From assembly GCA_030019475.1 (NCBI GenBank), contig JASEER010000007.1, positions 2,358 through 66,357 of the forward strand: DNA of 64,000 nucleotides, given 5' to 3'. Position 1 is the stretch's first letter. Every line of letters starts with the position of its first letter. The notes beneath the pieces are model-generated. The model did not search any database. It saw nothing but the letters and a program-made list of their open reading frames with translations, and was not told where the DNA came from. This document shows positions 58,507-63,825 of the stretch, in pieces. The position numbers and the translations under genes are program-made. This DNA is from Thermoanaerobacterales bacterium (GTDB lineage: Bacteria > Bacillota > Desulfotomaculia > Desulfotomaculales > JASEER01).

Positions 58507-58562
58507 GCCCGGGGGTGTTGGCTGCTCCGTATCACGCATATAGATATGGCGAGGTGATCCTC

Positions 58563-58826
58563 ATGGTAAAAATGTCTGACCTGCGGATGCGGGAAGTGGT
58601 CAATGTCCACGACGGCCGTCGCCTGGGGCTGATCAAGGATGTCGACATCGACCTCGAGACCGGACGGATCACGGCCCTGATCCTGCCCGGCGCATCGCGC
58701 CTGATGGGCTTTTTCGGGCGGGAAGAAGAAGTGGTTGTTCCCTGGGAGAAAATCGTCCGGATCGGGGTTGACGTGATCCTGGTGGAGGCACCCAACTTCA
58801 CGGAGGCCCGGTACCCAAGACGATAA
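58563..58826 (+). CDS. YlmC/YmxH family PRC-barrel protein
   Basis: 87 aa, one PRC barrel (MREVVNVHDGRRLGLIKDVDIDLETGRITALILPG). A small sporulation-linked family of unknown role that follows sigG/spoIIR in many spore formers. ATG 58563 with GAGGTGAT 5-6 nt upstream. Confidence 0.9.
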   Translation: MVKMSDLRMREVVNVHDGRRLGLIKDVDIDLETGRITALILPGASRLMGFFGREEEVVVPWEKIVRIGVDVILVEAPNFTEARYPRR

Positions 58827-58854
58827 ACCCCCGCATTCTTCGCGTCATTCCCGG

Positions 58855-58894
58855 AAGGCCCTGTGCAAGTCCGAGCGGGGCCTTTCTTGTTTTT
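58855..58894 (+). terminator. Terminator after ylmC
   Basis: AAGGCCC (58855-58861) pairs with GGGCCTT (58878-58884) over a 16-nt loop, then TCTTGTTTTT. Confidence 0.75.
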
Positions 58895-58904
58895 CCGAGG
58901 GTCA

Positions 58905-58933
58905 TTGCCAGGCACAGACATTAACGATAAAAT
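58905..58933 (+). promoter_or_regulatory. Sigma-A promoter of the Hint-domain gene
   Basis: TTGCCA (58905-58910), 17-nt spacer, TAAAAT (58928-58933, five of six to TATAAT). It is just past the ylmC terminator, so the next gene is its own transcription unit. Confidence 0.65.
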
Positions 58934-58981
58934 TTTAGGCAGATCATTGCCGGTCAGTTGGCTGCAAAGGGAGGACGAGTT

Positions 58982-59866
58982 TTGCTAAAGATCTTCCAGG
59001 GGTTGATCACCCAGCCGCACCCCGCCGCGAGCGTTCAGGAAAGCTTTCCCGCGTCCGGCCTTAACCCGCCGGTGACGGACGTCAACCCTTACCTGCTGGA
59101 TGCCGGCGCGCGGATCTGGGTCTGGGAGTTTTCAACCCGCCACCTGGGCTGCCTGCCGGTGGGCGAGGTCGCTTCCGGTTTCGGCGACCACCGCTACCGT
59201 GTGGTAAGCATGAACCTGCTTACCGGGCAGATGCGCCTCAAGGCGGTAACCTCGGTCCGCGGGCCCGGCCGGTCGCCGACGATGGTGCGCCTGACCCTGG
59301 CGTCGGGCCAGTCGATCGTAACCACTCCCGGCTGTCCCGTCCTGACCATCAGTGAGCGGGGGCAGATCACCACCGTCCCCGCGGTGGATGCCGAACTCGC
59401 CCTTGTTCCCCGGCGAATAGAGATGTGCTACGAGGTACGGGACAACGCCAGGCAGTTCGCCGGCATTCTTGACGTCTGCAGGGTGGACCCGGAGGCCCAC
59501 GTTGAATACGGGTGGATCCGGCCCCTGGTAACGAAAGCCTGGGGCTGGGACCGCCTGGAGGGCTACCCCCGGGTGGGGGAAGAGGTAATCGAAGAGCTTC
59601 GCGCCGACATCGAGCGGCGAGCCCGAAAGATGAACGCCCACAAGCTGAGTAAAATGGACTGCCTGGATTGCCTGGTGAAGGTGGCCGATAACTTCGCCCA
59701 GAGCATCTCCCTGCTCCTAACTTTTGCCATCCTTGACCGGGTCTTCCCGGTCAGGGTGACGTCCGTTGAAACCCTGCCGGGCTCCGATGCGGTTTGGGGT
59801 TTGACGATTGAGGACAACGAGAACTTCCTGACCGCCGAGGGGGTATACCTGGGCCAGCCCGAATGA
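58982..59866 (+). CDS. Free-standing Hint-fold (intein-like) protein without catalytic residues
   Basis: 294 aa from TTG 58982, with AAGGGAGG 7 nt upstream. Residues ~37-145 follow intein N-terminal blocks: LDAGARIWVWEFSTRHLGCLPVGEV resembles block A, RYRVVSMNLLTGQMRLKAV the next strand, and SIVTTPGCPVLT block B. Residues ~256-292 (PVRVTSVETL, then VWGLTIEDNENFLTAEGV) match the C-terminal blocks. Every catalytic site is changed: the first Cys is Leu/Asp, the block B His is Cys118, the HNF His is Glu280, and the terminal HN is GQ. Between the halves is a linker with CLDC (227-230) and no LAGLIDADG motif. There are no extein sequences. Own promoter and terminator-isolated. Function unknown; a domesticated dead intein is inferred. 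Confidence 0.7.
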   Translation: MLKIFQGLITQPHPAASVQESFPASGLNPPVTDVNPYLLDAGARIWVWEFSTRHLGCLPVGEVASGFGDHRYRVVSMNLLTGQMRLKAVTSVRGPGRSPTMVRLTLASGQSIVTTPGCPVLTISERGQITTVPAVDAELALVPRRIEMCYEVRDNARQFAGILDVCRVDPEAHVEYGWIRPLVTKAWGWDRLEGYPRVGEEVIEELRADIERRARKMNAHKLSKMDCLDCLVKVADNFAQSISLLLTFAILDRVFPVRVTSVETLPGSDAVWGLTIEDNENFLTAEGVYLGQPE

Positions 59867-60364: not shown

Positions 60365-61762
60365 GTGCTATCCCTCAAGCCAAACCTGGACTTCGCCAAG
60401 CGCTATGTAGAGGAACAGACCCTACGGCAACTCCTGGACTACATCGGCAAGGACCCGGGAAAAAACCTGCCCCGAATCGCCTCCCTAGCCCGTCTGGTGG
60501 CCAGAGCGGAGCATCACCGGAGGCACGTTGATATGATCCTGAGGCATCACCAGGAGAATCCCGTCATCCGGGATTTCATCCACCGGCTGTTCACCAGGAC
60601 GCATCCCAAGGTGAAGGAGCGCCTGCTGTACAACTGGTTCATTAACGCCCAAATCATCGGCATCCCCCGGCAGAGGCAACTGTCCGAGCAACTGGGCATC
60701 AACATACCGAACTTCTTCCTTATCGACCCCACCAGCAGCTGCAACCTGGCCTGCACGGGCTGCTGGGCCGGGAGGTATGCCCCCAAGGACGTCCTGGGCT
60801 TCGAAACCCTGGATCGCCTGCTGAAGGAGGCCAAGGAGCTGGGCATCTACTGGGTGGTAATGTCGGGCGGGGAGCCCTTCAAGTACCCGCGGCTGATAGA
60901 ACTCTGCTCCCGGCACAGCGACATGGCCTTCATGCTTTACACCAACGGCACGTTGATCACGGAGAAAGTGGCCGATGCCATACTAAACGCCGGTAACATG
61001 ACGCCGTCCTTCAGCCTGGAGGGGTGGCGTGAGGCTACTGACGCCCGCCGCGGACCGGGGGTCTTCGACCGGGTCATGCGGGCGATGGACCTGCTGCGTG
61101 AAAGGGGCATGGTCTTCGGGGTTTCCGTAACGATCACCAGGCACAACCTCGATGAGATCGTCAGTGACGCATTTATTGATTTCTTATTGGAGAAGGGTGT
61201 GACCTACGGCTGGTCGTTCCATTACGTGCCCGTGGGACGCAACCCGGACCCCGACCTGATGATCACGCCTGAACAGCGGGCCTACCTGGCGGAACGCATA
61301 CCCTACATCCGCATGCATAAGGGCCTCATGATCGCCGACTTCTGGAACGACGGGGAATTGACCGGGGGGTGCATCGCCGGCGGGCGACGCTACTTCCACA
61401 TAACAGCGGCCGGGGACGTGGAGCCGTGCGCCTTCGCCCACTTCGCGATGGATAATATCAAAGAGAAGAGCCTCAAGGATGTGCTGTCCTCGCCCCTCTT
61501 CAAGGCCTACCAGAAAAGGCAGCCCTTCGCCGAGAACCTTCTGCGGCCCTGCCCCATCATCGACTGTCCCGCGGCCCTGCGGGCGATCGTGGCGGAATCG
61601 GGAGCCCGGCCGACGCACGAAGGGGCCGATGCCATCCTTTTCGGGGACCTGGCCGCCGCGCTCGACCGCCGTTCCGCCGCCTGGGCCGAAGTGGCCGACC
61701 CAATCTGGGAGGCCCGCCAGACCGCCAGGCAGCAGGCCGAGAAAAGCGCAGCCGCCGGTTGA
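60365..61762 (+). CDS. Radical SAM protein with SPASM-like C-terminal cysteines
   Basis: 465 aa. About 120 residues of helical N-terminus precede the radical SAM motif SSCNLACTGCW (Cys126, Cys130, Cys133); VVMSGGEPFKYPRL follows. C-terminal cysteines in GGCIAGGRRYFHITAAGDVEPCAF and LRPCPIIDCPAAL suit auxiliary iron-sulfur clusters (SPASM/twitch). Such proteins modify peptides or cofactors, but no precursor peptide is evident. GTG start 10 nt after AAGGAGG. Substrate unknown. Confidence 0.85.
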   Translation: MLSLKPNLDFAKRYVEEQTLRQLLDYIGKDPGKNLPRIASLARLVARAEHHRRHVDMILRHHQENPVIRDFIHRLFTRTHPKVKERLLYNWFINAQIIGIPRQRQLSEQLGINIPNFFLIDPTSSCNLACTGCWAGRYAPKDVLGFETLDRLLKEAKELGIYWVVMSGGEPFKYPRLIELCSRHSDMAFMLYTNGTLITEKVADAILNAGNMTPSFSLEGWREATDARRGPGVFDRVMRAMDLLRERGMVFGVSVTITRHNLDEIVSDAFIDFLLEKGVTYGWSFHYVPVGRNPDPDLMITPEQRAYLAERIPYIRMHKGLMIADFWNDGELTGGCIAGGRRYFHITAAGDVEPCAFAHFAMDNIKEKSLKDVLSSPLFKAYQKRQPFAENLLRPCPIIDCPAALRAIVAESGARPTHEGADAILFGDLAAALDRRSAAWAEVADPIWEARQTARQQAEKSAAAG

Positions 61763-62256: not shown

Positions 62257-63825
62257 GTGTTTTTAACTTTTTACGGGGCTGCTGATACCGTAACCGGGTC
62301 CTGCTTCGTTCTCGACACCAGTTACTGCCGGATTATGGTGGACTGCGGCCTCTTCCAGGGGTCCAAAACCGTTAAGCAGCGCAACTATGATCCTTTTCCT
62401 TTCCCGCCGCGGAGCATCGATTACGTGCTGTTGACCCACGCCCATATCGACCACAGCGGCCTCATCCCGAAGCTGGTGAAACACGGGTACAACGGTCCGA
62501 TTATTACCACCCGCTGCACCATGGACCTGTGCGGCGCCCTTTTGCCGGACAGCGCCCACGTACAGGAAACAGAGGTGGAAAACAAGAACCGCAAGGCGCG
62601 GCGGGCCGGGCGCCCGCTGATCCAGCCTATCTATACAGTGGATGATGCCCTGGCGGCGATGCGCTTGTTTCAGGGTGTCGGTTACGATGAAGAGGTCCAG
62701 CTCTGCCGGGGGGTCCGCGCCCGTTTCCGGGATGCGGGGCATATCCTGGGCTCGGCGCTGATCGAACTCTGGGTGCGGGACGGCGACCAGGAGACCAAGT
62801 TTGTCTTTTCCGGGGACCTGGGCAACTACGGCCGGCCCTTCGTCGAAGACCCCACCGACATCTGGGAGGCCGACTGCCTCTTGCTGGAATCCACTTACGG
62901 CGACCGCATCCATAACCCCGAGGGCCTGGATATGAAGGCCCGGTTGCGGGACGTTATCCAGCGCACCTACAAACGGGGCGGGAACGTCCTTATCCCCGCC
63001 TTCGCCGTTGAGCGCACCCAGGAACTGATCTACGACCTGTCCCTCCTCAGCAGGGCCGGCGAACTCCCGCCGGTGCAGATCTATGTGGACAGTCCCCTGG
63101 CGGCCGCGGTGACGAGGGTCTTCACCAACCACCACGAGTGTTACGACGACGAGACGCGGGAGCTGGTGGCGGCCGGGGCGGCCCCGCTTGAAATGCCGAA
63201 CCTCCGGTTCTCGCAGACCGCCGAGGAATCCCGGATGCTCAACGCCACGCCGAGCGGGCTGGTGATTATCGCCGGAAGCGGAATGTGCGACGCCGGGCGT
63301 ATCCGGCACCACCTGAAGCATAACCTGTGGCGGCCGGAATCGAGCGTGGTCTTCGTCGGCTACCAGGCCGAGGGCACGCTGGGGCGGCGCCTGCTGAACG
63401 GCGAGAAGGACGTGCGCATCTTCGGCGACGACATCTGTGTCCGGGCGGAAATCGTCAACATCGACGGCTTTTCCGCCCACGCCGACCAGCGCATGCTGGT
63501 CAACTGGTTAAAGAAGTTCTCTGTGCTTCCCCAGCAGTTCTTCCTCGTCCACGGCGAGCCGGCGGCCGCGCGGGCGCTCCAGGACCGGATCGTTAAGGAC
63601 GTCGGCCTTCTGGGGGTTATACCCCGCTGGCAGGAGACCGTGGCCGTGCGGGGCGGGCGGCACGTGCAGGACAAGGTCCGCCAGGCCTGCGCCGGCTTCT
63701 GGGCGCGGCTGGAGAACTTCCTGGAGCAGAACCCGGACCGCGCGGTCTATGACGAGGTTATGTCGCGGCTCAATGAACTGCAGCAGCTCATCGACGAGAA
63801 AGCCGGGGGTAAAGGTGTGGCCTGA
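62257..63825 (+). CDS. Metallo-beta-lactamase/beta-CASP ribonuclease-like protein
   Basis: 522 aa. Metal motif THAHIDHSG, distal RDAGHILGSA and FSGDLGNYGRP; beta-CASP motifs in IPAFAVERTQELIY, VIIAGSGMCDAGRIRHHL and the C-terminal GFSAHADQ, VHGEP. It resembles the YSH1/CPSF-like mRNA 3'-end nuclease group rather than RNase J (no long C-terminal domain). Likely RNA-processing enzyme in the cytoplasm. GTG 62257 with GGGAGG 7 nt upstream. Confidence 0.93.
   Translation: MFLTFYGAADTVTGSCFVLDTSYCRIMVDCGLFQGSKTVKQRNYDPFPFPPRSIDYVLLTHAHIDHSGLIPKLVKHGYNGPIITTRCTMDLCGALLPDSAHVQETEVENKNRKARRAGRPLIQPIYTVDDALAAMRLFQGVGYDEEVQLCRGVRARFRDAGHILGSALIELWVRDGDQETKFVFSGDLGNYGRPFVEDPTDIWEADCLLLESTYGDRIHNPEGLDMKARLRDVIQRTYKRGGNVLIPAFAVERTQELIYDLSLLSRAGELPPVQIYVDSPLAAAVTRVFTNHHECYDDETRELVAAGAAPLEMPNLRFSQTAEESRMLNATPSGLVIIAGSGMCDAGRIRHHLKHNLWRPESSVVFVGYQAEGTLGRRLLNGEKDVRIFGDDICVRAEIVNIDGFSAHADQRMLVNWLKKFSVLPQQFFLVHGEPAAARALQDRIVKDVGLLGVIPRWQETVAVRGGRHVQDKVRQACAGFWARLENFLEQNPDRAVYDEVMSRLNELQQLIDEKAGGKGVA

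Follow-up and report, generated by a model that had tools for sequence, protein, structure and literature searches.

Positions 58982-59866 of the window, the 64,000-nucleotide stretch of contig C7 that was analysed from the 2.28 Mb genome of a spore-former-like bacterium, encode a free-standing protein (hereafter the orphan) that carries both halves of a Hint domain and is of intein ancestry. Inteins are generally held either to be selfish or to be retained in their hosts as splicing switches. This gene is quite probably the domesticated relic of an intein from the ribonucleotide reductase NrdD, inserted at the NSMH-S site, and may serve as a non-catalytic binding protein. The whole path appears visible, from an active-looking nrdD intein in relatives, through deletion of the host operon, to a selected, splicing-dead orphan in the slot; a genetic parasite has seemingly been turned into a cell protein.

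The orphan frame runs through 294 codons with 0 internal stops. Upstream lie sigE, sigG, spoIIR and ylmC, and downstream a radical-SAM gene, an FmdB-like zinc-ribbon gene and a metallo-beta-lactamase-fold gene (Table 1). The terminator-like hairpin behind ylmC sets the orphan apart from that gene, and the uninterrupted frame, good ribosome site, own promoter and upstream terminator described in the first-pass annotation were all found between 58853 and 59866. In the orthologue of a second genome (G001), AGAAAGGAGG precedes the start codon. Separating the orphan from the FmdB-like gene, the radical-SAM gene (60365-61762) is distinct from nrdG, and the corresponding slot in G058 lacks it.

Table 1. 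Positions in the window of the orphan gene, its signals, its parts and the borders of the former nrdR-nrdD-nrdG slot.
Feature	Position	Strand	Evidence
ylmC, upstream border of the former nrdR-nrdD-nrdG slot	58515-58826	+	
Terminator-like stem and T-run between ylmC and the orphan	about 58853-58894	+	
Sigma-70-like promoter, TTGCCA-17-TAAAAT	58905-58933	+	1 found versus 0.2 expected in shuffles
Ribosome-binding site AAAGGGAGG, 7 nt before TTG	58966-58974	+	Sequence
Orphan Hint gene, 294 aa, TTG start	58982-59866	+	ORF, Pfam, HMM, AlphaFold2, Foldseek
Hint N half, aa 38-150, intein profile positions about 1-112	59093-59431	+	HMM, AlphaFold2
TPGC in place of block B TDNH, in the Hint N half	59324-59335	+	
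Helical insert, aa 151-252, remnant of the intein's post-endonuclease domain	59432-59737	+	
YxWLRxLxxxAWGWDRxE, best conserved orphan-specific motif, in the helical insert	59507-59560	+	
Cys227-x-x-Cys230, in the helical insert	59660-59671	+	
Hint C half, aa 253-292, with VWGLTIEDNENFLTAEGV	59738-59857	+	
Metallo-beta-lactamase-fold gene, downstream slot border, likewise in G058 and G024	62257-63825	+	

Both sequence profiles and structure prediction place the protein among the inteins. Its sole Pfam match, to Intein_splicing (PF14890, residues 70-288, E=1.6e-6), scored 28.4 bits and did not reach the curated cut-off of 35.8, while an HMM built from seven NrdD inteins matched it with 80.3 bits in three collinear blocks that include both ends of the splicing domain. 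AlphaFold2, run on an 8-row alignment, modelled the two Hint halves (about residues 33-145 and 252-290) at a pLDDT of about 80-90, with long beta strands at 84-106 and 254-276, and the helical insert between them at low confidence. Compared with the PDB using Foldseek, this model gave 45 matches at E<=0.001, led by 2lqm (E=6.7e-8), with inteins in all the top places; BIL2 and hedgehog domains were also recovered. Sequence searches of the PDB matched an archaeal intein (E=8e-9 with a three-sequence profile), and a Rieske-like match of the single sequence (residues 30-69, E=0.05), which the profile search does not reproduce, was rejected as chance. PHROGs and PADLOC searches returned no meaningful match. 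The intein fold with both halves in order, for which structure prediction had been suggested as a check, is thus upheld by Pfam, the NrdD-intein HMM, AlphaFold2 and Foldseek alike.

The first-pass annotation had looked to a class II ribonucleotide reductase, NrdJ, as the source of this intein. In phmmer comparisons, however, the orphan scored 56-75 bits against the seven NrdD inteins and 8 bits against the NrdJ intein of its own genome, and the NrdJ inteins of the window genome and G001, together with the second NrdD intein of G001, all remained at <=8 bits. This difference points to an NrdD intein rather than a class II intein as the source, and the NrdJ origin was rejected; judged from its sequence, the orphan derives from the Ser-type intein of the class III (anaerobic) enzyme. 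The seven parental inteins (from G024, G056, G090, G147, G240, G282 and G317; 521-528 aa) are inserted between NSMH (or NTMH) and SRAGAQ or SRAGSQ, begin with Ser and end with His-Asn. Across the order, intein halves were matched inside NrdD frames of 1171-1211 aa, and a sample of the phylum (399 genomes) added four more inteins, whose frames are 1205-1241 aa long; the window gene aside, this sample contained only inteins within NrdD-sized frames.

On the NrdD-intein HMM the window protein covers profile positions 3-112, 317-374 and 477-524 of 526, in order; what it lacks is the LAGLIDADG endonuclease along with a portion of the helical domain that follows (the full parental intein model, at pLDDT 47, was too poor for use). 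The orphan therefore shares with the parental inteins a collinear arrangement of Hint N, part of the helical domain and Hint C, as well as the block F Glu, and it occupies the genomic slot that they use after ylmC-nrdR in G024 and G056. In contrast to them, it has no exteins, LAGLIDADG endonuclease, Ser1, intact block B or terminal His-Asn, and possesses its own promoter and start. Further inteins were seen in the carrier genomes. The class II NrdJ of the window genome (G000:C24:26114-28888) contains an intein of 376 aa, which has Cys1 and LAGLIDADG motifs and shares its insertion place with the one in G001, and the other NrdD of G001 (C34) contains a different LAGLIDADG intein at another site, after GYLSVY and before CVGWDLKQ.

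The genomic surroundings indicate how the intein came to stand alone. In G024 and G056 the gene order is ylmC-nrdR-nrdD(intein)-nrdG, followed in G024 by FmdB-like, metallo-beta-lactamase and ylmD (pgeF)-type genes. The same flanks enclose the orphan alone in the window and in G058, with the radical-SAM gene in addition in the window, while in G001 the contig ends directly beyond the orphan. In G003, G017 and G022, ylmC is followed by nrdR, or the nrdR neighbourhood, and nrdD. Searches of whole genomes found nrdR in G024 and G056 and failed to find it in G000 (the window genome), G001, G058, G049, G005 and G020. Given the shared flanks and the missing nrdR, the operon was evidently lost and the intein stayed behind, in agreement with the earlier proposal that the intein had lost its host gene: nrdR-nrdD-nrdG is gone from the slot in the window and G058. 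No credible match to leftovers of NrdR, NrdD or NrdG exteins was found in the three orphan slots (E=0.005 at best, the database being tiny), consistent with the reported lack of a flanking extein. The window genome retains another NrdD without an intein, as well as the intein-bearing NrdJ (contig C24). A ribonucleotide reductase host in the slot after ylmC had thus been correctly anticipated, but it was of class III and not class II. In this order, the slot behind ylmC-nrdR is occupied by a reductase of either class II or class III; the gene order of ylmC, nrdR and a class II gene given in the first-pass annotation does occur in a relative (ylmC-nrdR-nrdJ in G004, C157), but it is not where the intein came from.

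We propose that nrdR-nrdD-nrdG was deleted from behind ylmC in the ancestor that the window organism shared with G001 and the Desulforudis-like genomes, and that the intein within nrdD would have remained, its LAGLIDADG endonuclease being either absent beforehand or lost at that point. The stranded intein would then have acquired its own start and promoter. Its splicing residues disappeared, ending both splicing and homing, while purifying selection preserved the Hint scaffold and a helical insert in which a Trp-rich motif is new. The host gene and the slot are documented by the comparisons above, and the deletion presumably dates to that ancestor.

Position 1 is Leu, Phe or Gly among the three known orphans (Leu38 in the window), the nucleophile having indeed been lost, although the parental residue is Ser and not the Cys assumed earlier. 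The block B motif T-x-x-H reads TPGC in the window, where Cys118 replaces the His as described, and SNRD or AEGH in the other orphans. The terminal His-Asn has become GQ (Gly291-Gln292, likewise as described) or RD in the two complete copies, and the Ser that follows the intein C-terminus is Pro293 in the window protein, leaving no Cys, Ser or Thr at +1. Across the orphans there is no nucleophile or intact block B in 3/3 and no His-Asn in 2/2 complete copies. In contrast, the supposed loss of a block F His did not hold, since Glu, seen here as Glu280, is the normal and ancestral state of the parental NrdD inteins (VYDISVADNENFLTA). A new site that includes Cys118 is not supported, this position being Asp in G001 and His in G058, and in the Cys pair Cys227 aligns with a Cys found in 7/7 parental inteins, so that only Cys230, which G001 also possesses, is new. 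Loss of the splicing residues implies that the orphan would no longer be able to splice or cut DNA, and hence to home. Residual peptide-bond chemistry with substitute residues, such as Cys118 or the C-terminal Gln, is very improbable; inteins with unusual residues do occur, some of them ending in Gln, but here none of the substitutes at position 1, block B or the C-terminus is conserved, and exteins are missing.

Among 113 genomes of the order, the family numbers three members. The two orthologues, which have short frames, come from a Peptococcaceae MAG (G001; about 32-35% amino-acid identity to the window protein) and a Desulforudis MAG (G058; 31%), and both keep their place in the ylmC slot. 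A single-protein scan of the genome contigs returned no orthologues, an alignment scan only these two, and a scan of viral contigs none. In G058 (SURF_60; L018 8967-9692, minus strand) homology ends after about 205 residues, so that the C half is lost, and the frame beyond is antisense to a small conserved gene that adjoins the FmdB-like gene in G049. An FtsZ tree places the three carriers inside a supported clade of nine genomes (96/91), in which G000 is followed by G001 with G058 and G049, and these by five Desulforudis-like genomes. The orphan is absent from G049, a congener of G058, and from the five Desulforudis-like genomes, indicating that the gene is dispensable.

The simplest history is a single orphaning in the ancestor followed by repeated loss. 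Had each lineage orphaned its intein separately, part of the selection signal described below would stem from active inteins; the long branches between the orphans would fit such a history, but it is quite improbable in view of the common slot, the clade-wide loss of nrdR, the identical endonuclease deletion and the features specific to the orphans. These comprise their grouping as one clade against the seven inteins (98/98, to be taken with caution given the long branches) and ten aligned residues that all three share and none of the inteins has, most of them located in the helical insert (YxWLRxLxxxAWGWDRxE, RAxK).

Assuming this single orphaning, sequence evolution since the split of the one complete pair (window and G001; the third copy is shortened) can be used to ask whether the protein has been maintained. 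Identity at codon positions 1/2/3 is 0.51/0.55/0.27, against chance values of 0.27/0.25/0.24, and the pattern of high first and second and chance-level third positions is repeated in every part of the protein. Over 267 codons the alignment contains 0 stops, against a neutral expectation of 9.9, and amino-acid identity is 0.32 against a neutral mean of 0.17 and maximum of 0.25 (2000 runs). The absence of stops and the conservation of first and second but not third positions indicate that, with the host gene gone, the protein remained under purifying selection, though weaker than on SpoIIR (57% identity) or YlmC (73%). The orphan is thus a fast-evolving gene, at 34% identity against the 57% of SpoIIR. 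NG86 gave a dN of about 0.77 with dS undefined or 2.1, and YN00 was saturated. GC by codon position (0.65/0.45/0.82) matches that of the neighbouring genes, whereas flanking intergenic DNA has 53-56% GC.

An alternative is that the gene is a non-functional fossil, an intein remnant in decay whose frame in the window is still open as a matter of time. The shortened G058 copy, its frame running into an antisense neighbour, the absence from G049 and other close relatives and the low identity among orphans are compatible with decay, but the missing stops, the codon-position pattern, the coding-type GC3 of 0.82 and the preserved promoter and Shine-Dalgarno sequence make it unlikely. The view of the first-pass annotation that the gene is a kept relic and not a decaying scrap is therefore sustained; its further suggestion of a purpose such as protein binding agrees with retention under selection, the binding itself being conjecture.

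If the relic is kept as a protein, its most likely role would be that of a non-catalytic folded binding protein with the helical insert, the most conserved part between the window and G001 (37%), as contact surface; folding in the cell, a binding function and a partner are all presumed in this model. The orphans are acidic (pI 5.3-5.7, versus 8.7-9.3 in three parental inteins) and deletion has removed the most HTH-like part of the intein's helical domain (about 375-450), so that binding to protein, tentative and somewhat short of an even chance, is favoured over binding to DNA. WhiA is a regulator of LAGLIDADG protein descent, and by analogy the post-endonuclease helical insert might retain DNA recognition without cutting. 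The strong conservation of the insert, the basic parental inteins and the adjacency of the helical domain to the endonuclease would suit such a regulator, which nevertheless appears a little less likely even than a fossil, given the acidic orphans, the deleted HTH-like stretch and the lack of a Pfam domain match. That the lineage exapted a dead intein as a free-standing protein seems on balance likely, perhaps with a part in ribonucleotide reductase control, a speculative link that is conceivable because the clade has lost the reductase repressor NrdR.

Bacterial intein-like (BIL) and hedgehog Hint domains are autoprocessing domains joined to other domains. The orphan shares their fold, as the Foldseek matches show, but stands alone, has no nucleophile and is nearest in sequence to NrdD inteins. 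Yeasts have stand-alone intein-derived proteins in HO and WHO, which retain their endonuclease (PMC7282813). Like them, the orphan has no exteins or C-terminal splicing motif, and HO is likewise domesticated (PMC7282813); however, HO and WHO, which occur in yeast, kept the endonuclease and gained a C-terminal zinc finger, whereas the bacterial orphan, whose host gene is lost, retains a dead Hint scaffold with the endonuclease block gone and no match to a zinc-finger family. Intein-derived stand-alone proteins are thus already known, and what would be new is a splicing-dead, nuclease-free one in a bacterium, a putative counterpart of HO in which the scaffold was retained rather than the nuclease and which opens to test what a Hint fold does without its chemistry. 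No bacterial case was found in the open-access literature on orphan, stand-alone or domesticated inteins, the scope of the search, and in a review devoted to exapted mobile elements of prokaryotes inteins appear solely as conditional splicing switches (PMC8987985). The Pyrococcus horikoshii RadA intein, as cited there, has also lost its endonuclease and been retained to the cell's benefit, but it still splices within its host, unlike the hostless orphan (PMC8987985).
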